In this document: in pieces, positions 2,951 to 54,045 of the stretch
Layout: every line of letters starts with the position of its first letter
Position numbering within the stretch: the stretch's first letter is position 1
NCBI RefSeq assembly: GCF_014486695.1
Contig: NZ_JACTAB010000001.1
Coordinates: 248,001 to 312,000, forward strand
DNA: 64,000 nucleotides
Direction: 5' to 3'
From: Flavobacterium buctense
GTDB lineage: Bacteria; Bacteroidota; Bacteroidia; Flavobacteriales; Flavobacteriaceae
Notes under the pieces: model-generated
Told to the model about the DNA's origin: nothing
Databases searched by the model: none
What the model saw: the letters and a program-made list of their open reading frames with translations, nothing else
Position numbers and translations under genes: made by a program

Positions 2951-3835
2951 ATGAGCCACACTTATATAATTATTGATGACAATCAAGACGATGTCACGAA
3001 AACTCAGATTATAGCTGAGCGCTTTCGTAACTTGTCTTTCGTCGCTTCTGCCAATAGTTATGACGAAGGAGTGAATCTTATTTTAGAACACCAACCCCAT
3101 CTTGTTTTTCTCGAGATTGATCCTTCAGACAAAAAGAGTAATCTTGCTTTGTCACTAATAAACGAGTTGTATCGTTATTTAAGTGTTGTACCCAAAATCA
3201 TCATTACAACTTCTAAAAAAGACATGGCCTACGAAGCCTTGAAATATGAAGTGGTTGATTATTTGCTGAAACCATTAGACATTAATGATTTCAGAAAAGC
3301 AATTTTGAAATTTGACCGCGCTATTAAATCGGACTTACCACATATGGAACTGAAAAATCCGGTGGCAACTTTTGAAGTATTGGATGAGACGATGACCGAA
3401 GCACCGGAAACTGCTGAACATGATGTTGAATTGAAAAGCATTCCGGTATCAGCTGAAATGCCGATTGTCGAACAAAAACAACAATCACTTATAATATGTA
3501 TTAAGTCGTACGGCGATTACCGATACATTGACTCAAATGATGTATTGTACTTTGAAGCCGATAACAATTCGACTGATATTCACCTTAATAATGGTGAAAT
3601 GATAACTGCTTTTAAAACTTTGAAGCATTTCGAAACCGTTTTACCGCAAACCCAATTTCTTCGTATTCATAACAGTTACATTATTAATGTGGACCAAGTT
3701 TCGAGGATTCATACCGGAAATACCGTTTGCTACATTAAAAACTCCACCACCAAATTACCGTTCTCAAAATCCTATAAAGACAATGTCGATTTGATTATTA
3801 CTCGCATCGCCGGCGGAAATTATTTGGAGATATAG
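2951..3835 (+). CDS. LytTR-family response regulator with Glu at the phospho-acceptor position
   Basis: 294 residues: receiver domain (about 1-125), acidic linker (about 130-170), and a C-terminal LytTR DNA-binding domain (about 178-290; FLRIHNSYIINVDQV is the typical core). The acidic pocket is IIDDNQDD, the Thr is in ITTSKK and the Lys in YLLKP, but where families have LDI the sequence is FLEIDP: Glu55 replaces the Asp. Glu may mimic the phosphorylated state, so the protein may act without a kinase, or Asp57 may be used instead. It opens the sensory cluster and lies 33 bp before a second regulator gene. DNA targets are unknown. Confidence 0.88.
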   Translation: MSHTYIIIDDNQDDVTKTQIIAERFRNLSFVASANSYDEGVNLILEHQPHLVFLEIDPSDKKSNLALSLINELYRYLSVVPKIIITTSKKDMAYEALKYEVVDYLLKPLDINDFRKAILKFDRAIKSDLPHMELKNPVATFEVLDETMTEAPETAEHDVELKSIPVSAEMPIVEQKQQSLIICIKSYGDYRYIDSNDVLYFEADNNSTDIHLNNGEMITAFKTLKHFETVLPQTQFLRIHNSYIINVDQVSRIHTGNTVCYIKNSTTKLPFSKSYKDNVDLIITRIAGGNYLEI

Positions 3836-3868
3836 AAGAAAAATAGTACGTTTACTAAAATTTAGAAT

Positions 3869-4525
3869 ATGGAAGTAAATGTATTAATGATTGATGATCA
3901 TCCTCCGATTATTGAAGGGTATAAATCCATACTGTCATACAATTCCCATGGTTATGTCCTTAATATTACTACAGCTTTAAGTTGTGAGTCAGCCTATGAG
4001 TTGATTTCAACTACAAAAAATTCATTTGAAATCGTTATGATAGATTACACAATGCCGCCTTATTTAGAGCGAAATATCGAATGTGGTACCGACTTAGTTC
4101 CAATCATTCGAAAATATTTAGGACAATCTAAAATCATGATATTGACTTCCCATTCGGAGTCATTTTTGCTCTTAAAGCTATTAAACGAATGCAATCCTGA
4201 AGGATTGTTGGTAAAAAGTGACATTATGGCTGAGGAATTTCTAGAGGCTTTCGATGCCGTTGTAAGAGGCGAAAACTATTATAGTAGTACCATTACTCGT
4301 CTCAAACAAGAGGTAAAAGAAACTGCCAAAGTTCTCGATAGTTATAACAGACAAATAATTATGTTATTGGCACAAGGAATTAAAACCAAAAACCTTCCCG
4401 ACTATCTATATCTTTCAAAAAGTGCAGTTGACAAAAGGAAAGCTTTTATCAAAGAATTTTTCTGCATTGAAAAAGGCAACGATGAAGACATCCTAAGAGA
4501 AGCTCGAAAAAAAGGATTAATATAG
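3869..4525 (+). CDS. Response regulator, receiver plus LuxR-type HTH
   Basis: 218 residues. Receiver: acidic pair at D9-D10, phospho-acceptor D59 in VMIDYTMP, Thr in ILTSHS, Lys in LVKSD. The C-terminal 65 residues (LLAQGIKTKNLPDYLYLSKS and on) align with a LuxR/NarL helix-turn-helix, with LP where most members have IA. It is a paralogue of the regulator at 10010, sharing the ending LREARKKGLI/LIREAKNKGVI. The likely partner is the TPR kinase at 5238, but pairing is inferred from position only. Confidence 0.88.
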   Translation: MEVNVLMIDDHPPIIEGYKSILSYNSHGYVLNITTALSCESAYELISTTKNSFEIVMIDYTMPPYLERNIECGTDLVPIIRKYLGQSKIMILTSHSESFLLLKLLNECNPEGLLVKSDIMAEEFLEAFDAVVRGENYYSSTITRLKQEVKETAKVLDSYNRQIIMLLAQGIKTKNLPDYLYLSKSAVDKRKAFIKEFFCIEKGNDEDILREARKKGLI

Positions 4526-4849
4526 CTGTTGCATTCTCTAAATCAACATTTTTATCGATTTTAGAAAAATGTACACTTTTAGTGTACCTAAAAGTCATTT
4601 TCATCCATTAATTTTACCTCAATAAAAAACTCAATTTTATTATGGGTAATAAAAGCAAGACTCACCATCTTGACATGTAGCTAAATCTGAGTGGTATCAT
4701 ATTTGGTGAAAATTAATTGAAATTTGTTCTGTTTATTTTGGGTTTGTTATTAAACAGGAGTATGCAAAAACCAACCTAAATGCAGCCTTGGCTTTGATGT
4801 TTGGACGACTTAAAGCTCGGGCTGTATTGTTTTAACCGATGACTGATTT
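4526..4849. other. 324-bp gap with overlapping hairpins
   Basis: No gene is apparent. At 4571-4595 two perfect hairpins overlap and exclude each other: GTACAC/GTGTAC (4571-4576 with 4582-4587) and ACTTTTAG/CTAAAAGT (4575-4582 with 4588-4595). The second is followed by CATTTTCATCC rather than a clean T run. Near 4782-4830, GCAGCC and GGCTGT could pair across about 33 bases, in a stretch of higher GC than its surroundings that might be part of a small RNA or leader. Confidence 0.35.
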
Positions 4850-5212
4850 ATGAGACCATTATTTATTATACTATTCTTTGTACTGTTTTCTTCTTTAGGT
4901 TTTGCCCAAGATAGCGACCAACAAGAATATGCTTATTTAAAAATAAAAACCGGTGAAGAAACCATTACCTATGAATTTGATTCTGTTATTGACTTTAATG
5001 AAAATACTGAGAAAATATTAAACGAAATCACAGTATCTCATCCTACTAATAAAAAAGAAAAAGAACCTTTACTTACCATTGAAATCTCATTCACCATTAC
5101 TTCTAAGAATGAGTCGAGTACCATAACGGGTTCTATTACCGCAGCTCATTCTTCAATAATCGCTTCTGCAAAAAAGCTTCAAACACAATTGCTGGCAATA
5201 GCAATAGGATAA
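4850..5212 (+). CDS. Small secreted protein of unknown function
   Basis: 120 residues with a clear signal peptide (MRPLFIILFFVLFSSLGFAQ, cleavage after FAQ). The mature ~100 residues are rich in Thr, Ser, Glu and Lys, with alternating hydrophobic residues (LLTIEISFTITSK) suggesting a beta-sandwich. No family recognised. It lies 25 bp ahead of the TPR kinase at 5238 on the same strand and is probably co-transcribed, so a periplasmic partner or ligand role is possible but unproven. Confidence 0.6.
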   Translation: MRPLFIILFFVLFSSLGFAQDSDQQEYAYLKIKTGEETITYEFDSVIDFNENTEKILNEITVSHPTNKKEKEPLLTIEISFTITSKNESSTITGSITAAHSSIIASAKKLQTQLLAIAIG

Positions 5213-5237
5213 TTATATTTTTAATTAAATTGGCTAC

Positions 5238-7265
5238 ATGAACAAAAGCGCTGGGTTTTTTATACTTATTTTAATCATCATTTTAGGTTGTAACTCTAAA
5301 TCAACCCATAAAACAAGCAACGCCACCAACGACTCTATTCAAAAATACCTTGACTTAGCCGGGAATGATACTTTAGATTTTGATAAAAGAATAAAGTACA
5401 ATGATAAAGCATTAGGGTTTTTGGATTTGGAGAGGAATGATAGTTTGAGTAGGGAATATTTGAGTAGAGTTAATTATTTATATTTAAAAGCAAATAATTT
5501 TCAAAGTTTTGAAAAAGTAATAAACCATTACAAAATCAAAGTTTTTGAAAAAAATGATAGTTTAGGAATTGCAAGATATTATAAATACAAAGGGCATTAT
5601 CATCATTTTAAGAACGCAAATGACTCTGCTTTTTACAATTACATTGAAGCTGAAAAGATTTTTCAATTTTTGGATAATAAATATGAGATTGCTCTAATAA
5701 ATCTCAACAAATCATTTATACAAAACAACATAAACGACTATTTAGGAGGTGAACTCTCTGCTAAAAAAGCACATAATTACTTTAAAGAAAAAAAATTTTA
5801 TAATAAAGAATTTAAAAGTTTAATTTCACTTGGTAATATTTATCAATCAATAGGTGTAAATGAGAATGCCATAAAATGCTATAAAGATGCAATGAATTTA
5901 ATTGATAAAATTGATGATTATGATTATGTTGAAAAAAACCCTAAAGTAACTTGTCTAAACAATATTGGAAATGTTTATAGAGAACAAAATAACTTTAAAA
6001 AAGCGATATTTTATTTTAACCTCGCCCTGAAAGAAAAAAAAATAACTGAAAAAGACCCTGTATTATATGGGTTATTGTTAAATAATTTGGGCTATTGTTA
6101 TTTAAAAACAAATCAAAAAGGGACAAAAAATTTATTTGTAAAGGCACAAAAAATTTTTGATAGTATCGGGTTAAAAGATGAGAATGCTATCTGTAATATT
6201 AATCTGTCTGAATATTTTTCCAAAAAAGGTGATTCGTTAAAAGCTAATTTTCATGCTGAACTAGCTTTAAAATTAGCTAAAGAATCAAAAGCTTCTTATT
6301 ACTACTTAACCGCCTTAAGTCATGCCGGAAGTATCAACTCAAAGAAAGCACCTAATTACATTAAAGAGTACCATCGGGTTAACGACAGTATGCTATTTGC
6401 GGAAAGAACCGCCAGAAATGAATATTATAAAATTCAGTTAGACACAGACGAAATAGCACAACAAAAAGACACTGCGGTTAAACAGAAATCAATTCTGATT
6501 TTAATCGCTGCTCTTCTTTTTTGTATTTGTTTCTTGATTTTTATTATTGCCCGCCAAAGATTAAAACAAAAAGAATTCCGGTTAAAACAAACCGAACAAA
6601 ATGCCAGTGAAGAAATATACCAACTCATGCTTGTCCAAGAGGATAAAGAAGAAAAAGTACGTCAATTAGAAAAAAAGCGAATCGGACTTGAATTGCATGA
6701 CGGGATTTTAAATAAGCTGGTCAGCACTCGGCTTAATCTTTCCATATTATCCATTAGTCATGATGAAGGGACGGTTAAAAAATGCTTAGACTACATCAAG
6801 AGCATTCAAAGTATAGAAAACGAGATTCGGAATGTTGCCCATGATTTAAACCAAGATTCCTTTTCAGACTCCAATAGCTTCAGCAAGCTGTTAAACAACT
6901 TAACGGAAGACCTGAACGCAACAACCAAGACATTGTTTAAACTTGAATTCAATGATGCCATGGATTGGAATAACGTTTCCAATAGCAAGAAGATGAATTT
7001 GTACCGTATTACACAAGAAGCTAGCCACAACATTATCAAACACGCCAAAGCGAAGAATGCCGAAATCAATATTGTAATGGATGACCATAAAATAAACCTC
7101 TCGATTATTGACAACGGAATTGGGTTAAAGCCATCCCGATCTGAAAATGGAATTGGGTTAGAAAATATGAAGCACCGCATAAAAAATTTAAATGGTAAAT
7201 TTAAAATTACTTCACAGCCCAACCTAGGAACTTCTATCCATATCACAATTCCCAAAATTGACTAA
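5238..7265 (+). CDS. Lipoprotein-type TPR sensor histidine kinase (HisKA_3)
   Basis: 675 residues. The N-terminus has the lipobox LIIILGCN (Cys18), then about 370 residues of helical tetratricopeptide-like repeats (ALINLNKSFIQ, LISLGNIYQSIG, TCLNNIGNVYRE), one transmembrane helix at about 417-440, a coiled-coil linker, a HisKA_3 dimerisation domain with His487 in ELHDGI, and an HATPase_c domain (N-box in TQEASHNIIKHAKA, DNGIGL, NGIGLENM). The topology puts the TPR array in the periplasm and the kinase in the cytoplasm. The TPR half is visibly more AT-rich than the kinase half. Paralogue of 7962-10013. Confidence 0.9.
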   Translation: MNKSAGFFILILIIILGCNSKSTHKTSNATNDSIQKYLDLAGNDTLDFDKRIKYNDKALGFLDLERNDSLSREYLSRVNYLYLKANNFQSFEKVINHYKIKVFEKNDSLGIARYYKYKGHYHHFKNANDSAFYNYIEAEKIFQFLDNKYEIALINLNKSFIQNNINDYLGGELSAKKAHNYFKEKKFYNKEFKSLISLGNIYQSIGVNENAIKCYKDAMNLIDKIDDYDYVEKNPKVTCLNNIGNVYREQNNFKKAIFYFNLALKEKKITEKDPVLYGLLLNNLGYCYLKTNQKGTKNLFVKAQKIFDSIGLKDENAICNINLSEYFSKKGDSLKANFHAELALKLAKESKASYYYLTALSHAGSINSKKAPNYIKEYHRVNDSMLFAERTARNEYYKIQLDTDEIAQQKDTAVKQKSILILIAALLFCICFLIFIIARQRLKQKEFRLKQTEQNASEEIYQLMLVQEDKEEKVRQLEKKRIGLELHDGILNKLVSTRLNLSILSISHDEGTVKKCLDYIKSIQSIENEIRNVAHDLNQDSFSDSNSFSKLLNNLTEDLNATTKTLFKLEFNDAMDWNNVSNSKKMNLYRITQEASHNIIKHAKAKNAEINIVMDDHKINLSIIDNGIGLKPSRSENGIGLENMKHRIKNLNGKFKITSQPNLGTSIHITIPKID

Positions 7266-7439
7266 TTGAATAGTCGAGATATATTCTTTTACTCCCAAGA
7301 GAATAATATTGCTGTTTGCAACTTTAAAATATGCCTCAATCGCAACTTCTTTAAACAACGTTGTTAACATATCCTGAAAATTATCAACATTTTTAGGAAA
7401 ATTGCCAAAATCATCCACCCGAATTTGACTATCATTCAC
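7224..7439 (-). pseudogene. Possible LytTR-domain remnant
   Basis: A 71-codon frame with only a GTG start, preceded directly by a stop and overlapping the end of the kinase gene by 42 bp. Its middle, YFKVANSNIILLGVKEYIST, resembles the LytTR core seen in the regulator at 2951 (FLRIHNSYIINVDQVSRI). It could be a decayed end of a LytTR gene left between the kinase and the peptide gene. Chance similarity is a real alternative. Confidence 0.22.
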
Positions 7440-7600
7440 TCACAAACGAGGTCATTCTACCATAAACACCAATATATATAGGGATTCCCAGAGACATCCT
7501 TTTTAGTTTTACATCGTGAAAGTGTGAAAGCCCTCAAATCATTTAAAGCCCACACTCATTAAAACGAAACAAAAACATTAACAATAAAAAGTCTCAAATT
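7266..7600. other. 335-bp gap before the repeat-peptide gene
   Basis: Apart from the possible LytTR remnant, no gene is visible. TAGTTTTA at 7504-7511 could be a -7 element for the repeat-peptide gene, giving a leader of roughly 85 bases; no TTG lies at the proper distance. The last 60 bases are A-rich, as expected for a translated leader in this group. Confidence 0.3.
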
Positions 7601-7873
7601 ATGAAAAAATTAGCAACAACTTTCGGACTATTGGCTTTAATGCTTGTAGTTACTTCATTTACCACTCCAGTAGATACAGGTGGTAGAACTCCAGGTGGTA
7701 TGGGTTACACTCTTGAAACAGGTGGTAGAACTCCAGGAGGTATGGGTTACACTCTTGAAACAGGTGGTAGAACTCCAGGAGGTATGGGTTACACTCTTGA
7801 AACAGGTGGTAGAACTCCAGGAGGTATGGGATTCAATTTAGAAAGAGGATCTGTTATGCCAAGCGTAAACTAA
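7601..7873 (+). CDS. Secreted tandem-repeat peptide precursor-like protein
   Basis: 90 residues. Residues 1-22 form a signal peptide (hydrophobic FGLLALMLVVTSF). After PVD the protein is four direct repeats of TGGRTPGGMGYTLE (residues 26-81; the last reads GFNLE), then a short tail RGSVMPSVN. There are no Cys residues. The design of signal peptide plus identical Gly-rich units resembles multi-copy peptide precursors such as yeast mating pheromones, or a small repetitive surface protein. It lies between two TPR sensor kinases and is followed by its own strong terminator, which suggests abundant separate expression. I do not recognise a family. Confidence 0.75.
   Translation: MKKLATTFGLLALMLVVTSFTTPVDTGGRTPGGMGYTLETGGRTPGGMGYTLETGGRTPGGMGYTLETGGRTPGGMGFNLERGSVMPSVN
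7676..7843 (+). repeat. Four in-frame 42-bp tandem repeats
   Basis: Units at 7676-7717, 7718-7759, 7760-7801 and 7802-7843. The first three are almost identical at DNA level (a GGT/GGA difference in unit 1); the fourth diverges in its last third. Silent sites are nearly unchanged, pointing to recent duplication or repeat homogenisation. Confidence 0.95.
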
Positions 7874-7894
7874 AAAATTAAAAAAATATTATTT

Positions 7895-7926
7895 AAGCTA
7901 TCAAGATTTCTTGGTAGCTTTTTTTT
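7895..7926 (+). terminator. Strong terminator after the repeat-peptide gene
   Basis: Stem AAGCTATCAAG (7895-7905), loop ATTT, complement CTTGGTAGCTT (7910-7920) with one G-T pair, then a T run to 7926. Confidence 0.88.
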
Positions 7927-7940
7927 ATTGTATATATTTA
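7911..7940 (+). promoter_or_regulatory. Promoter of the second TPR kinase, embedded in the terminator
   Basis: TTG at 7911-7913, 19 bp, then TATATTTA at 7933-7940 (TAnnTTTG with a final A). The TTG lies in the descending arm of the terminator hairpin. Predicted transcription starts near 7946, just before the TTG start codon at 7962. Confidence 0.5.
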
Positions 7941-7961
7941 CCTTTTATAAAAAAGACAACT

Positions 7962-10013
7962 TTGAAAAAAGGATTATTTATAATTATAATGCTGTTTTTT
8001 TTGGGATGTAAACAAAAAAAAACAACTAACCTTGGTTTAAATAAAACTAAAGACAGTTTATCTTATTTTAGTAAAGAGTTATCAGATGACAGAAAAAATC
8101 TTGAACAAAAAAAACAAGTTGTAAAAAAAACTTTGTCATACATTGAAGACAAAGAAAATTCACTTGAAAAAAGGGAAGTTCTCCTTTCAATAATATCCTT
8201 TCAAGTATTAAATCAGGAATATTATAAGTTTGATTATGTTTATAAATCTTTACTTGAAAATTCAATTCTCTCAAATGACTCTCTCAACATTGCTAATGCC
8301 TACCGTTTTAAAGCAAGTTATTTAAAAAATAATATTGTTTTTGATAGTGCTTTTTATTTTTATGGTAAGTCTGAAAAAATTTATAGTAAAATTAATGATC
8401 AAGAAAATTTAGGTAATGTTCTACTAAACAAAAGTGTTACGCAATATTTTGCAAATGATTTTCTCAAAGCTGACTTAACAGCAATAAAAGCATATAATAT
8501 TCTCAAGAAACAAGACGATAAATATAAAATCTATTTGAATTTAACAGTTCTTGGAAACATAAACAATGAATTAAATGAGTATGAAAAAGCGCTTAATTAC
8601 CACAAAAATGCTCTTGAGATAATTGAAAAATATAAAATAGATAATAATCAACATCCAAAAGCAACTTGTTTGAATAATATAGGTCATACCTATAAACTAC
8701 AAAAAAAATATAATGAAGCTATAACTTATTTCAATTTAGCATTATCAAATAAAAATTTATTAGTCGACACACCTGATTTATATGTTTTATTACTCGACAA
8801 TTTAGCTTATTGCAAACTAAAAATTAAGGACAATAGGGATTTACCTAAAATGTTTTTAGAATCATTGAATATAAGTGATAGTTTAAAACTTTACTCAAGT
8901 TCTATTTATAGCTTAAATCATCTTTCTGAATTTTACGCAGAAAAAAAAGATTATCAAAAAGCAAGAATTTACTCTACGAGAGCTGTAAATCTATCAAAAT
9001 TGACGAAGTTGCCAGTTGATATTCTTAGCTCTTTAAAACAAAGTTCTTTAGTCTTCCCTCCAGAAGAAGCTAAGAAACTCTCGTTAAATTACATCAGGAT
9101 TAATGATAGTCTTCAACAAGTTGAAAGAAAATCACAAGAAAAATTCGCACGGATCCAACTCGAAACCGACGAAATCATTCAAGAAAACGAAGGTTTAGCC
9201 GAGAGTAACAGAAACCTTCTCTATGTATTTGTGGTTTCATTCATCTTGGTAGTCCTATTGTTTGTCGTTAGAGCACAAAGAGCGAGAACTAGGGAGTTAT
9301 TGTACAAACAAGCCCAACAAAAAGCCAACGAAGACATTTACAACCTCATGATGTCACAACAAGCTATTATTGATGAAAGTCGAAATAAGGAGAAAAAGCG
9401 TTTGGCTCAAGATTTACACGATGGTGTTCTGGGCAGAATGTTTGGTTTGCGCTTAAACTTAGACAGCTTAAATTCCAGTACTGAAGAAGATGCGGTTCGA
9501 AAACGTTTCGAATTATTAAACGAACTCAAAACCATCGAACAAGACATCCGCGAAATATCCCACGACTTAAATAGAGAAAAACAAGTTTTAATTAATAACT
9601 TTGTTTCTATCGTTCACAATTTATTAGAAGAACAAAAAACGGCATTTGAAGTGAATGTCAACTATACTATTGATGAAAATGTAGTTTGGGATAAAATAGG
9701 TAACGCCATCAAAATCAATTTATACCGTATCCTACAAGAAGGTTTGCAAAATATTAATAAGTATGCCAATGCTAAAAACATCTTGGTAGAGATAAAAGGC
9801 GATGAAGAAAATGTATATTTGAAAATCCAAGACGATGGCGTTGGATTCGATGTCAATAAGAAAAGTAAAGGAATCGGCATGCAAAACATGATATCCCGAA
9901 CCAATGATTGCAAAGGAATCATCGACATCAATTCTAAAAAAGACAACGGAACCAAAATTGTAATTACTATTCCAATCGAAACAAAACAACCTATAATTGT
10001 AGAACAAGAATGA
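7962..10013 (+). CDS. Second lipoprotein-type TPR sensor histidine kinase
   Basis: 683 residues from a TTG start at 7962. An open frame extends to 7911 but would begin inside the terminator and put 17 extra residues before a canonical lipoprotein signal (MKKGLFIIIMLFFLGC). From 7962 the catalytic His is residue 486, almost the same as His487 in the paralogue at 5238. Layout: lipobox Cys16, periplasmic TPR-like array to about 400, one transmembrane helix at about 417-438, coiled coil, HisKA_3 (DLHDGV), HATPase_c (QDDGVGF, KGIGMQNM). The stop overlaps the next regulator's ATG by 4 bp, so the two are translationally coupled. Confidence 0.9.
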   Translation: MKKGLFIIIMLFFLGCKQKKTTNLGLNKTKDSLSYFSKELSDDRKNLEQKKQVVKKTLSYIEDKENSLEKREVLLSIISFQVLNQEYYKFDYVYKSLLENSILSNDSLNIANAYRFKASYLKNNIVFDSAFYFYGKSEKIYSKINDQENLGNVLLNKSVTQYFANDFLKADLTAIKAYNILKKQDDKYKIYLNLTVLGNINNELNEYEKALNYHKNALEIIEKYKIDNNQHPKATCLNNIGHTYKLQKKYNEAITYFNLALSNKNLLVDTPDLYVLLLDNLAYCKLKIKDNRDLPKMFLESLNISDSLKLYSSSIYSLNHLSEFYAEKKDYQKARIYSTRAVNLSKLTKLPVDILSSLKQSSLVFPPEEAKKLSLNYIRINDSLQQVERKSQEKFARIQLETDEIIQENEGLAESNRNLLYVFVVSFILVVLLFVVRAQRARTRELLYKQAQQKANEDIYNLMMSQQAIIDESRNKEKKRLAQDLHDGVLGRMFGLRLNLDSLNSSTEEDAVRKRFELLNELKTIEQDIREISHDLNREKQVLINNFVSIVHNLLEEQKTAFEVNVNYTIDENVVWDKIGNAIKINLYRILQEGLQNINKYANAKNILVEIKGDEENVYLKIQDDGVGFDVNKKSKGIGMQNMISRTNDCKGIIDINSKKDNGTKIVITIPIETKQPIIVEQE

Positions 10014-10675
10014 AAAGCCCTATCCAAATTTTAATCGTAGACGACCATCCCTTTATTATCGAAGCCTACAAAAATGCCATTAATAAATATGGCCAAAAAG
10101 GCTTTGATTTTGTGGTAACCCAAGCCAACAACTGTAAATCGGGCTACGAGAATATTATTGATGCAACTAAAAAATTTGATATTGCTTTTTTTGACATCAG
10201 TATGCCGGAATATGCCGAAAAAGGAATCTACTCCGGAGAAGATTTAGCCATGTTGATGAAAACCGAAATGCCGGAATGCAAAGTGATTTTGTTGACCATG
10301 CACACCGAATTACTTAAGATAAATAACATCATCAAAAACATCAATCCAAGTGGCTTAATCATTAAAAACGACTTGACTTTTGACGAGTTGCTTTTTGCTT
10401 TTGATAAAATCATTAACGACGAAAGTTATTACAGCCAAACCGTAATTAAATTAGTCGGTCAAGCCCAATACAATAATATCGAATTAGACGTTTTTGACAA
10501 ACAAATCCTATTCCACTTATCAAAAGGGGTAAAAACTAAAGATTTACCAACCTATATACCGCTTTCCTTAAGCGCTATCGAAAAAAGAAAACTAAATATT
10601 CGCGAAATATTGGAAGTTGCAGGCGGAACAGATGTTGATTTAATCAGAGAAGCCAAGAATAAAGGTGTCATTTAA
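10010..10675 (+). CDS. Response regulator paired with the second TPR kinase
   Basis: 221 residues. Receiver with D11-D12, phospho-acceptor D62 in FFDISMP, Thr in LLTMHT and Lys in IIKND; C-terminal LuxR-like HTH (LSKGVKTKDLPTYIPLSLSA). The ATGA overlap with the kinase gene makes it the almost certain phosphorylation partner of that kinase. It is a close paralogue of the regulator at 3869, implying duplication of a kinase-regulator pair. Confidence 0.92.
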   Translation: MKSPIQILIVDDHPFIIEAYKNAINKYGQKGFDFVVTQANNCKSGYENIIDATKKFDIAFFDISMPEYAEKGIYSGEDLAMLMKTEMPECKVILLTMHTELLKINNIIKNINPSGLIIKNDLTFDELLFAFDKIINDESYYSQTVIKLVGQAQYNNIELDVFDKQILFHLSKGVKTKDLPTYIPLSLSAIEKRKLNIREILEVAGGTDVDLIREAKNKGVI

Positions 10676-22568: not shown

Positions 22569-23048
22569 ATGGATTTAAAAGAAATTCAAAACCTAATCAA
22601 ATTTGTATCCAATTCCGGGGTTGCTGAAGTAAAGTTAGAGACAGGTGACATTAAAATTACAATCCGAACTACCTTAGAAGGCAATTCACCTGATATCACT
22701 TATGTGCAACAAGCGCCAATGCAACAAGCCATTGCTGCTCCTGCTGCTGTTGCTCCAGTTGCTGCTGCACCGGTTGCCGCTGCTCCTGCTGCTGATGACA
22801 ACTCAAAATATGTTACTATAAAATCACCAATGATTGGAACATTCTACCGCAAACCATCTCCGGACAAACCGGTATTTGTGGAAGTTGGTAGTACTATCCA
22901 AAAAGGTGACGTACTTTGTGTAGTTGAAGCGATGAAGTTGTTCAACGAAATCGAAGCAGAAATCACCGGTAAAATCGTTAAGATTTTAGTAGACGATATG
23001 TCTCCGGTAGAATTTGACCAACCGTTATTCTTGGTAGATCCATCTTAA
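22569..23048 (+). CDS. accB: Biotin carboxyl carrier protein of acetyl-CoA carboxylase
   Basis: 159 residues: N-terminal helix pair, an Ala/Pro-rich flexible linker (about 55-80, APAAVAPVAAAPVAA), and a biotinyl domain with Lys123 in VEAMKLFNEIE. It carries carboxybiotin between AccC and the carboxyltransferase. Confidence 0.96.
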   Translation: MDLKEIQNLIKFVSNSGVAEVKLETGDIKITIRTTLEGNSPDITYVQQAPMQQAIAAPAAVAPVAAAPVAAAPAADDNSKYVTIKSPMIGTFYRKPSPDKPVFVEVGSTIQKGDVLCVVEAMKLFNEIEAEITGKIVKILVDDMSPVEFDQPLFLVDPS

Positions 23049-24697: not shown

Positions 24698-26602
24698 TTA
24701 TAGCGTTTCTTTTAGCCATTTGTAAAACTCACGTTGCCATACTAAAGCATTTTGTGGTTTTAAAACCCAGTGGTTTTCTTCGGGGAAGAGCATGAAACGG
24801 CTTTTGATGCCTCGTAATTGAGCCGCTTGGAAAGCTTCTTGTCCTTGCCCGATAGGCACTCGGTAATCTTTTCCACCTTGGATGATTAAGATAGGTGTGT
24901 TCCATTTGTCGACCATTTTTATTGGATTGAATTTGGTATAGGCTTTTTGGGCATCAGCATTGTCTTTTTCCCAATAAGCGCCGCCGTGGTCCCAGTTGTT
25001 GAAGAAGACTTCTTCGGTGGTGCCGTACATACTCTCTAAATTGAAAACTCCGCAATGCGAAATAAACGTTTTAAAACGGTTGTTATGAATGCCGGCGAGG
25101 TAGAATACTGAATAACCGCCATAGCTCGCTCCAACAGCACCTAAACGCGTTTTATCGACATAACTTTCTTTGGCCACATCATCAATCGCTGAGAGATAGT
25201 CATCCATTACTTGTCCGCCCCAATCTTTAGAGATTTGTTCGTTCCAAGCTTGTCCGTGACCGTACATGCCGCGGCGGTTTGGCGCTACGATTACATAGCC
25301 TTGAGATGCCATTAAGGAGAAGTTCCAACGGAAAGAATACGTTTGGGTTAACGGTGATTGCGGTCCGCCTTGGCAGTATAAAAGCGTTGGGTATTTTTTG
25401 GTTTTGTCAAAATTCGGAGGAAGAATTACCCAAACCAACATTTTCTTACCATCAGTGGTGGTTACATAACGTCTTTCGTATTTGGGTAAGGCCAATTTGG
25501 CGTAAGTCTCGTCGTTGGTTTTGGTGAGTTGTAGCCAAGTTTTTTTCTTGAAGTTGTACGAATAGATTTCGCTGGCGTGGTTCATGTCGGTGCGCGTTAC
25601 GATGATGTTATCGCCTGAGAAACCTACCAAGTCATTCACGTCAAAATCGCCTGAAGTGATTTGTCTCACGGTAACTGCAATTCTAGTTAAACCCGGGAAA
25701 TTGACTTCGAATAAATGTTTGGCTCCGTCAACCGCTGCGGTGAAATATACTTTTTTACCATCGACACTCCAAAGGAAATTATCGACACTGCCGTCCCAAT
25801 TGGCGGTAAGATTCATGTCGATTCCTTTGAAACGAACGATTAAATCGTTTTTATCGGCTTCGTAACCGTCACGTTTCATTTGCAACCATGTTAGGTTTCC
25901 GGTTGGGGAAAACACCGGATTCATATCATAACCTGGATTGTTTTCGGTTAGGTTTTTGGTGGTTTTGGTTTCGAGGTTGTATTCGTATAAATCGGTGTTG
26001 GTAGAAACGGCATAATCGGTTCCCGCTTTCTTTTTGCAAACGTAGATGATGCTTTTGCTATCAGGAGACCAAATGTAATCTTCATCGCCACCGAAAGGTT
26101 TTTGTGGACTATCATAGGGTTCGTTAGGCATAATGTCGATTGGCCTTGCTTTGGTTCCTTTGTTTAAAGCATAAAAAACGTGGTTATGGGTACCGTTGTT
26201 CCAGGTATCCCAATGGCGGTAATCTAAACCATTGTAGACTTGTGCATCGGATTTGCTTAAATCGGAGTGAATGTCTTTTCCTAATACGTTTTCGGTTTTT
26301 ACTTCTTGACTCGAAAGAATATACAAACCATCCGGGGAAACATTTTTGTCTGTCATTATTTCTTTGGTGTCAGCTACTTCCGTTGGTGTTCCGTCGGTTA
26401 CCGGAATGGTGTAGAACTTAGTAGTTGACTTGTTGTCGGCCACTGATGGTGTGGCTACTTTGTAAACGATAGTTTTTCCATCGGTTGAAATTCCTAAAGC
26501 GGTTACTCTTCCTAATTTCCATAGGGTTTCCGGACTAAGGACTTCTTGGGCTGTGGATTGTAAGGCCATAAAACTAATGAGGGTAATAAAAATATTTTTC
26601 AT
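24698..26602 (-). CDS. Secreted S9-family serine peptidase (prolyl oligopeptidase/DPP type)
   Basis: 634 residues with signal peptide (start MKNIFITLISFMALQSTAQ). The N-terminal two-thirds is a WD/Kelch-like beta-propeller (repeated SPDG, SPDSKSIIY, SPTGNLTW). C-terminal alpha/beta-hydrolase: nucleophile Ser in GASYGGYSVF, Asp in GGKDYRVP, His in PEENHWV, in the correct order. It should cleave short peptides in the periplasm or outside. Start codon: three ATGs 11 bp apart occur here; this one follows two overlapping four-codon frames (see findings). Confidence 0.92.
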   Translation of the reverse strand: MKNIFITLISFMALQSTAQEVLSPETLWKLGRVTALGISTDGKTIVYKVATPSVADNKSTTKFYTIPVTDGTPTEVADTKEIMTDKNVSPDGLYILSSQEVKTENVLGKDIHSDLSKSDAQVYNGLDYRHWDTWNNGTHNHVFYALNKGTKARPIDIMPNEPYDSPQKPFGGDEDYIWSPDSKSIIYVCKKKAGTDYAVSTNTDLYEYNLETKTTKNLTENNPGYDMNPVFSPTGNLTWLQMKRDGYEADKNDLIVRFKGIDMNLTANWDGSVDNFLWSVDGKKVYFTAAVDGAKHLFEVNFPGLTRIAVTVRQITSGDFDVNDLVGFSGDNIIVTRTDMNHASEIYSYNFKKKTWLQLTKTNDETYAKLALPKYERRYVTTTDGKKMLVWVILPPNFDKTKKYPTLLYCQGGPQSPLTQTYSFRWNFSLMASQGYVIVAPNRRGMYGHGQAWNEQISKDWGGQVMDDYLSAIDDVAKESYVDKTRLGAVGASYGGYSVFYLAGIHNNRFKTFISHCGVFNLESMYGTTEEVFFNNWDHGGAYWEKDNADAQKAYTKFNPIKMVDKWNTPILIIQGGKDYRVPIGQGQEAFQAAQLRGIKSRFMLFPEENHWVLKPQNALVWQREFYKWLKETL

Positions 26603-26628
26603 TTTGATTTCATTTTGATTTCATTTTG
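26600..26628 (-). repeat. 11-bp tandem repeat making overlapping micro-ORFs before the S9 peptidase
   Basis: Unit (plus strand) CATTTTGATTT, 2.7 copies at 26600-26610, 26611-26621 and 26622-26628. On the minus strand each gives ATGAAATCAAAATGA, a four-codon frame whose stop overlaps the next ATG; the last ATG is the gene's start. Confidence 0.75.
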
Positions 26629-26635
26629 AAGTACG

Positions 26636-40321: not shown

Positions 40322-40376
40322 TTGCTCAGTAATCAGTTGGCAGACTGAACACTGAACACTGAATACTGAACACTAA
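40322..40376. repeat. Intergenic word array, ACTGAACACTGA type
   Basis: Left: TTGCTCAGTAATCAGTTGGC; right: AGACTGAACACTGAACACTG followed by AATACTGAACACT. Same words as at 38116, in the gap between moxR and the DUF58 gene of one operon. Confidence 0.75.
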
Positions 40377-44995: not shown

Positions 44996-45721
44996 ATGAA
45001 GAAGTTATTGATTTATAGTTTACTGCTAATTTCCTTTTTGGCGAAAGCCCAAGAAAAAGGAAAAGATAAAAATTTGCCCAGAGGAAACGAATCTTTTGTA
45101 GAGAAAAAATATGCTGATGCTGAAGCAGAATACCGAATTTCCGAATCCAAAAACCCCAAAAAATCGATCGCGCCTTATAACTTAGGGAATGCTGTTTACC
45201 GTCAGAATCAGAATAATGAAGCCAAATACCATTATGCCAAAGCGTTGAAAAATGCCAAAACGAAAACTGAAAAACACCAAGCGTTTCATAATATCGGAAA
45301 CACTTTGATGAAAAATAAAGATTATTCCGGCGCCGTGGAAGCTTATAAAAACGCTTTGCGCAATAATCCGGCAGATGATCAAACCCGCTACAATTATGCT
45401 TTGGCTAAAAAAATGCTAAAAGACAATCCGCCCAAAAAGAACGACGATAAAAGCAAAGACAAAAAGAACCAAAAGGAAGACGAAAAGAAAAAGAAAGACA
45501 ATAAAGACAAAGACAAGGACAAAAAAGGGCAAAACGATAAAGACAAAAAAGAAGACAAAGAAAAAAATCAAGGAAAACCTCAACCACAACCGGGCGGAAT
45601 TTCCAAACAGCGCTTAGAGAATTTATTAGATGCTGTAAACAACGAAGAGAAAAAAGTGCAGGATAAAGTCAACAAACAAAAAGTGCAAGCCAATCCGAAA
45701 AAAGCGGAAAAAGATTGGTAA
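44996..45721 (+). CDS. batC: BatC, TPR protein
   Basis: 241 residues. Signal peptide ending AKAQ, three TPR units (about 30-140), then a very charged Lys/Asp stretch (about 145-200; KDKDKDKKGQNDKDKK) and a PQPQPGG turn before a helix. It probably bridges BatA/B in the periplasm. The low-complexity Lys/Asp stretch is rich in AAA/GAC codons and could vary in length between strains. Confidence 0.9.
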   Translation: MKKLLIYSLLLISFLAKAQEKGKDKNLPRGNESFVEKKYADAEAEYRISESKNPKKSIAPYNLGNAVYRQNQNNEAKYHYAKALKNAKTKTEKHQAFHNIGNTLMKNKDYSGAVEAYKNALRNNPADDQTRYNYALAKKMLKDNPPKKNDDKSKDKKNQKEDEKKKKDNKDKDKDKKGQNDKDKKEDKEKNQGKPQPQPGGISKQRLENLLDAVNNEEKKVQDKVNKQKVQANPKKAEKDW

Positions 45722-53980: not shown

Positions 53981-54045
53981 GAGATAAGGGATAAGGCATA
54001 AGGCATAAGGCATAAGAAACTTACTTATCCCTAATCCCTTGTTGC
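53981..54045. repeat. Intergenic word array, GGGATAAGGCATAAGG type
   Basis: AAGGGATAAGGCATAAGGCA followed by TAAGGCATAAG; then the inverse CTTATCCCTAATCCCTTG (54024-54041). Confidence 0.75.

Follow-up and report, generated by a model that had tools for sequence, protein, structure and literature searches.

A tandem-repeat peptide precursor and its adjacent TPR histidine kinase as a candidate pheromone–receptor pair in Flavobacterium

The DNA analyzed here is a 64,000-nucleotide stretch of the Flavobacterium buctense genome (the window; contig NZ_JACTAB010000001.1, positions 248,001–312,000). A small gene at 7601–7873 encodes REP, a secreted tandem-repeat peptide precursor of 90 amino acids, and the gene that follows on the same (+) strand encodes HK2, a histidine kinase with a lipobox, a tetratricopeptide repeat (TPR) sensor, one transmembrane (TM) segment, and HisKA_3 and HATPase_c domains (7962–10013, in an open reading frame (ORF) listed from 7911). 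We consider it probable that REP gives rise to a secreted peptide pheromone, as its multi-copy precursor, and that HK2, rather than a second TPR kinase encoded upstream (HK1), is the cognate receptor. Cell-to-cell signaling of this kind appears to be present in many Flavobacterium species. This assignment draws on co-variation of REP with the HK2 sensor, their exchange as a cassette, conflict between sensor and kinase trees, and the Rap/NprR-like fold of the sensor model. A preliminary description of the locus had proposed that the TPR kinases on both sides of REP sense the peptide; the downstream kinase retained that role on the grounds of adjacency, co-diversification, and its Rap/NprR-like model, and the upstream kinase lost it.

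Co-variation and exchange of REP and the HK2 sensor

The genus shares the operon order glyS-LytTR-REP-HK2-RR2-thiL, where RR2 is a receiver-domain regulator and the flanking genes are ones that we take, from their protein sequences, to be glyS and thiL. Comparisons were based on 125 REP loci (three of them duplicates): 100 selected by REP (L060–L159) and 25 others, comprising the window and 24 of L032–L059. The REP-selected loci came from the upper part of the match list of a REP profile (A1), with loci already in the set omitted, along with some others by no fixed rule, and are not a random draw. Co-occurrence of REP and the kinases in related genomes had been named as a check on the preliminary description, and a TPR kinase was found directly downstream of REP in all 96 of the REP-selected loci that had room for one. 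In 92 of the 100, the gene directly after REP was an intact ORF of 600 amino acids or more; HK2 was broken or cut in four (L067, L086, L088, and L094), and a contig edge intervened in the other four. The interrupted HK2 frames in L067 and in a metagenome-assembled genome (L051:6971–9018) may reflect assembly error or gene decay.

Relative to the window protein, 23 of 24 HK2 relatives had sensors that were 34–42% identical, with identities of up to 94% in the TM region and up to 92% in the kinase domain. The exception, L032, carries nearly the same repeat as the window and has a sensor that is 76% identical. (The closest HK2 proteins in named records include those of F. sedimenticola and Flavobacterium sp. 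FEMGT703F.) A partial Mantel test was applied to 113 of the 116 loci with intact HK2, after the three duplicates were dropped. With correction for the kinase domain, REP similarity followed sensor similarity (r=0.521, 0/2000 permutations, quadratic version). The association was weaker in a rank-based version (r=0.235, 0/500; with kinase, RR2, thiL, and glyS removed together, r=0.164, 0/200). When the sensor was removed instead, the rank test left little correlation of REP with RR2 (0.021, 55/200) or LytTR (0.081, 7/200). At kinase identities of 0.9–1.0, sensor identity was 0.84 for pairs with the same peptide (n=14) and 0.45 for pairs with different peptides (n=31); at kinase identities of 0.5–0.6, the corresponding values were 0.54 (n=9) and 0.36 (n=2488). 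The window and L069, whose peptides differ, illustrate the pattern, with identities of 0.95 in the kinase domain, 1.00 in the TM segment, 0.97 in RR2, and 0.37 in the sensor.

The best control is the HK1 sensor of the same operon. In the 25 loci with both kinases, REP co-varied with the sensor of HK2 (r=0.592, 0/2000) but did not follow that of HK1 (r=0.050, 362/2000), and L049 and L061, which share a peptide, have HK2 sensors that are 0.99 alike and HK1 sensors that are 0.28 alike. HK1 was accordingly rejected as a second REP receptor, both on these values and on its occurrence, full-length HK1 being present upstream in 32 of the 125 loci.

The boundaries of the co-varying region were evident in DNA comparisons. 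Between the window and L069, identity in 100-base blocks was 86–93% in the promoter and leader, 43–68% from the start of the repeats through the sensor, and 81–95% (one block, 75%) across the TM segment, kinase domain, RR2, and thiL. L049 and L061 showed the reverse, with 97–100% identity in the sensor, 80–91% downstream, 86–89% in REP, and 45–77% in the upstream HK1 region; sensor identity exceeding that of the flanks indicates that the sensor part was transferred recently. Judged by these alignments, mature REP and the hypervariable HK2 sensor domain (8010–9155) are a bounded exchange cassette between constant flanks. In trees of 48 of the 113 loci, the sensor grouped by peptide and the kinase domain by species. 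Approximately unbiased (AU) tests were run on groups that follow peptide similarity, named after the trees had been inspected. Two peptide groups were rejected by the kinase data, L064+L044+L036 (p 7e-31) and L060+L073+L074+L083+L038+L042+L039 (p 2e-48), as was the kinase clade L064+L073+L092+L097+L100 by the sensor data (p 1.6e-45); the window and L032 as one clade were not rejected by the kinase data (p 0.39).

The REP precursor and the HK2 sensor

The REP repeat noted in the preliminary description is real: Tandem Repeats Finder reported a 42-base unit in 3.7 copies at 7676–7830, with 99% matches and a score of 303. The translation begins with the leader MKKLATTFGLLALMLVVTSFTTP (7601–7669), a putative export signal that is constant in the A1 alignment, and continues with four units of TGGRTPGGMG plus YTLE, the last ending GFNLERGSVMPSVN. 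The fourth copy diverges past TGGRTPGGMG, which marks this segment as the constant part and YTLE as linker-like, a division also drawn from comparison with L032. The 14-residue unit proposed earlier probably comprises a core of some 10 residues and a linker. In L069 the core is IGGSKTPGLGNG.

Across the family the leader varies little, and it is followed by 2–7 repeat copies whose core differs in nearly every species; from sequence, leader and promoter are constant and the array is hypervariable. With the core taken as the best exactly repeated word, a word of at least five residues occurred in at least two copies in 117 of 122 distinct precursors and in at least three copies in 111, giving 113 distinct best words. 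Copy spacing was unequal in 16 of the 117, and in 15 of these the cause was linker length around a constant core, as in L044, where IGGRSQDP[ST] cores are separated by VALE, RT, LTIDSE, and RT; in L036 one copy had been missed through a point change. Arrays terminated at the core in 54 of 111 precursors, a count that is partly by construction because the last copy limits the repeated word. Between neighboring copies of 60 constant-period precursors, synonymous divergence (pS) was 0.313 and nonsynonymous divergence (pN) 0.087, for a pN/pS of 0.28, with the period picked by amino-acid match, which favors a low ratio. The copies thus appear to be held by selection, with synonymous sites drifting and the peptide hardly changing. 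Low pN/pS together with linker variation is what would be expected of a core that is itself the functional product. Precursors are 56–161 amino acids long, with little besides repeats after the leader.

No established family described these proteins. The 31 REP members used to build A1, largely from kinase-selected loci, matched no NCBIfam family (10 one-member matches, best E 0.019) and no curated Pfam family (one-member matches, best E 0.00044), and the window gene had no Pfam family at E 0.01. Sarcolamban in Pfam was hit by 20 of the 31, the window protein scoring 12.8 bits against a cut-off of 27. A1 found matches in 231 of 398 Flavobacterium genomes (E 0.01); a single REP sequence, searched against one genome per genus, matched only itself (1/199).

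The listed start of the HK2 ORF, TTG at 7911, falls within a terminator-like hairpin (7895–7920), and TTG at 7962 is the likelier start, which places the lipobox Cys at residue 16. A Cys aligned with this residue (C33 in the numbering of the longer ORF) in 113/113 HK2 proteins of REP loci, and a simple pattern recognized a lipobox-like motif in 106 of them. Pfam TPR_12 matched the sensor (E 4.7e-17), and HisKA_3 and HATPase_c were likewise assigned by Pfam. An AlphaFold2 (AF2) model of residues 34–470, built from 69 sequences, had a predicted local distance difference test (pLDDT) score of 92.7 and a predicted template-modeling (pTM) score of 0.82, and consists of a TPR superhelix that continues into a single long, TM-containing helix. 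The best matches of the sensor model in the PDB were LGN/Pins with peptides (Z up to 29.5), followed by RapI (27.4), NprR (27.0), and Rap with PhrC (26.8); TPR superhelices resemble one another, so these matches show fold and not function. Residues that follow the peptide were enriched in the inner A helices relative to the outer B helices (mean difference 0.29 vs 0.22, p 0.0055), and the top 40 positions included 20 in inner and 8 in outer helices, the helices having been assigned by the analyst from secondary structure.

Operon regulation, accessory genes, and related kinases

Three direct WTYYACY boxes with a 21-bp period precede REP (7413–7461, + strand) and are the only three-box site in the window on either strand. 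Among 122 upstream regions, three boxes were present in 75 and two in 106 (0.000 and 0.06 in shuffles, respectively); because these regions share ancestry, the counts speak for conservation and not independent origin. The 71-base box stretch had no second copy in its own genome beyond short chance matches. LytTR regulators bind direct repeats with ~21-bp spacing, which makes the boxes a candidate site through which the LytTR protein of the operon (2951–3835; Pfam REC and LytTR), encoded upstream of REP across the genus, would control REP. A simple pattern found Glu at the expected receiver Asp in 90 of 104 LytTR proteins (12 unparsed, one Asn, and one Ala), and the window protein has Glu at this phospho-acceptor position, as do L166, L167, and L172. 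With Glu for Asp, LytTR may not need phosphorylation to act, and the true partner of the kinase may be RR2. RR2 (10010–10675; Pfam REC), whose position is conserved and whose gene overlaps the HK2 stop codon, is the likely phosphorylation partner of HK2.

The hairpin between REP and HK2, with its T-run, spans 7895–7926. Similar terminator-like hairpins, with stems that differ in sequence, preceded HK2 in 118 of 120 distinct REP downstream regions, compared with 15.3 expected in mononucleotide shuffles and 6/125 in an upstream control. This arrangement suggests that REP probably has a short transcript of its own and is made in larger amounts than HK2.

All seven genes of the preliminary description are in the ORF list on the + strand with the coordinates given there. 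Three belong to an accessory RR1-(SSP)-HK1 block inserted between LytTR and REP in the clade of the window and some others. RR1 (3869–4525) is a receiver-domain regulator (Pfam Response_reg); the LuxR-type helix-turn-helix of RR1 and RR2 failed to reach E 0.01 in Pfam, and the LuxR label is plausible but provisional. HK1 (5238–7265) has TPR, HisKA_3, and HATPase_c domains, with HisKA_3 just under the Pfam cut-off (22.7 vs 24). Its own sensor is hypervariable and is common to less similar HK1 kinases (L044/L061: sensor 0.75, kinase 0.50), as with a private ligand. SSP (4850–5212) is a small secreted protein with no Pfam family at E 0.01 and a predicted fold (AF2, pLDDT 81.9) that had no PDB match at E 0.001; the best, emfourin (E 0.03), was not significant. 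SSP was tried as the HK1 ligand and rejected, as it showed no clear co-variation with the HK1 sensor in 16 loci (r=0.144, 158/2000); its correlation with the HK2 sensor (r=0.242, 49/2000) was left uninterpreted. No other short precursor near HK1 was convincing in 16 loci. A second secreted family of ~132 amino acids (..KGGELLLSGLS..) lies beside SSP, between RR1 and HK1, in L034, L041, L042, L050, L054, L056, and L059. Other tandem repeats in the window, several of them 7-base arrays, are at 22733–22794, 26597–26629, 40344–40374, 45433–45516, and 53984–54016.

Kinases resembling HK2 extend beyond REP loci. Thirty loci were fetched from Flavobacterium genomes without REP, and many had another short secreted precursor upstream with a conspicuous C-terminus, such as ..TDPIIIPKKD (L170), ..TPIIIIKKD, ..NGDKDLPKPPMKP, or ..TGGTLNNAGAKKRD. 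L170 and L225 contain six and at least three tandem lipoprotein-like precursor genes, respectively, all ending TDPIIIPKKD, plus one ending NPILIIKND; here copy number appears to have been raised by gene duplication rather than by an array. In searches that scored the best 8 or 6 first-look candidates per genome, 101 of 149 Flavobacteriaceae genomes contained a match to an HK2 profile (A2) at E 1e-60, and in 92 of them the match went beyond E 1e-100. Across the phylum (198 genomes), matches beyond E 1e-100 came exclusively from Flavobacteriaceae, and the best outside that family reached 1.9e-80.

A crude, home-made export-signal score placed a small secreted ORF upstream of the kinase in 64 of 70 HK2-search loci, compared with 2 of 13 weaker TPR kinases and 15 of 481 other genes. 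The wrong small ORF had been scored in five of the 64 (L189, L209, L218, L220, and L229), with a proper precursor present at each; L228, one of the six negatives, does have a precursor, and one of the 15 other-gene matches, L067, is in fact a genuine REP. Among the 70 are some weak kinases (such as L193, E 2.9e-27), as well as eight same-genus loci (L225–L232), of which L226–L231 have REP-like precursors. Arrays in other genera included TDGDDTPTDDRQS in five copies, one of them changed (L204), and CDDCAHDSDDRET.. in six (L218). HK2-like kinases also occur in neighboring clusters, with five at G059:C1:3337578–3347748 and four at G270:C1:711541–722610.

Proposed mechanism, alternatives, and known systems

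In the mechanism proposed for the REP–HK2 pair, the leader would export REP, and proteolysis would free short cores, here about TGGRTPGGMG; outside the cytoplasm, these may dock in the inner groove of the TPR superhelix of HK2, which would then alter RR2 phosphorylation. Feedback could arise through the LytTR protein acting on the direct boxes ahead of REP, and the terminator past REP would keep the precursor in excess over its receptor; HK1 presumably reads something else.

Several observations weigh against this interpretation. With the sensor removed, a correlation of REP persisted in the rank test, of r=0.219 (0/200) with the kinase domain and r=0.202 (0/200) with thiL, indicating that shared ancestry was incompletely removed. 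The kinase adjacent to REP in L081 and L109 is only 25–30% identical to the window kinases, and in other genera those of L198 and L202 have an ordinary signal without a lipobox. At E 0.01, 167 of the 398 Flavobacterium genomes had no REP match, and of 40 such genomes, 32 contained an HK2-like kinase (E 1e-20, some weak) and 8 did not. Likeness of a modeled TPR fold is no proof of peptide binding, and a LytTR receiver apparently lacking the usual Asp clouds the link between LytTR and the kinase. Cleavage, release, and signaling by REP are proposed here from sequence alone.

The strongest competing explanation leaves REP uncut in the periplasm, where it would serve HK2 as a multivalent ligand or co-sensor and the pair would sense envelope state or proteolysis within one cell. 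It accounts equally well for co-variation and adjacency, and it fits the operon, in which no processing enzyme or exporter was recognized. However, a sensor–ligand code that is repeatedly exchanged between species fits communication and is harder to reconcile with a housekeeping sensor, and linker variation, together with the single-copy and gene-repeated precursors of the same class, suggests that the core is the unit; we therefore regard this explanation as unlikely. Less probable still is an antagonistic or self-recognition peptide of the bacteriocin type, with HK2 as a self-sensor controlling resistance: it would account for a hypervariable peptide matched to the product of the neighboring gene, but that product is a full two-component kinase accompanied by its regulator, the flanks are housekeeping genes, and no immunity, transporter, or modification gene was recognized in the shared operon. 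The alternative raised in the preliminary description, a surface or matrix protein regulated by the kinases, is the least credible, since REP is indeed secreted, repetitive, and often glycine-rich but is too short and too nearly confined to repeats after its leader, and such a protein has no reason to follow the HK2 sensor and not that of HK1.

Beyond the genus, the pheromone interpretation of REP and HK2 leads to a broader proposal, which we favor with less assurance: a Flavobacteriaceae-wide class of peptide pheromones, with extracytoplasmic, Rap-like TPR sensors on histidine kinases, private precursors encoded upstream, independent rises in copy number (through arrays or tandem genes), and specificity traded by cassette. 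Peptide quorum sensing has been described mainly in Gram-positive bacteria, and we know of no description of it for this Gram-negative group. A full-text literature search, whose coverage excluded most subscription journals and bioRxiv, found no description of the REP–HK2 system. If the proposal is correct, a large Gram-negative family would use many species-private peptide signals, with the candidate sequence readable from the genome and the matching receptor adjacent. Ligand–receptor specificity, cassette exchange, and social behavior in Flavobacteriaceae would become directly testable, and the TPR groove of RRNPP receptors would be joined to an agr-like kinase, a combination not found in the literature searched.

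Among the closest known systems are agr of staphylococci and comQXPA of Bacillus, in which a secreted peptide acts on a membrane histidine kinase and a hypervariable peptide-plus-sensor cassette lies between constant flanks; agr also uses a LytTR regulator with direct-repeat sites at ~21-bp spacing. REP–HK2 has the same kind of cassette, but no AgrB/ComQ-like processing enzyme was recognized among the ORFs of the window operon, and the sensor is a predicted extracytoplasmic TPR superhelix with one TM segment rather than a polytopic membrane domain. Its cores are linear-looking and Gly-rich, without Cys in the window, its precursor is multi-copy, and its host is a Gram-negative member of the Bacteroidota. 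The literature searched included two articles on agr, PMC10482373 and PMC12312760.

The RRNPP systems (Rap, Rgg, NprR, PlcR, and PrgX) combine a TPR receptor with a short exported propeptide encoded by an adjacent gene, and their receptors are intracellular proteins of 250–500 amino acids, described in Firmicutes (PMC10075063). HK2, at ~683 amino acids with kinase domains, exceeds that range. It shares with RRNPP receptors the TPRs, a sensor model that matches the Rap and NprR folds, and the adjoining propeptide gene (in the 96 loci given above), but its TPR domain is predicted to lie outside the cytoplasm from the aligned lipobox Cys and the TM segment after the TPRs. Precursors of the yeast alpha-factor type have a leader, tandem copies, spacers, species-specific cores, and a Kex2-type site, and the receptor is a G-protein-coupled receptor (GPCR). 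REP likewise has a leader, tandem copies with spacers, and species-specific cores; it differs in being bacterial, in having no identified Kex2-type site, and in its proposed receptor, a two-component kinase and not a GPCR. By these features, REP–HK2 combines a logic like that of agr and comQXP with a receptor fold like that of RRNPP proteins, and is a member of neither group.

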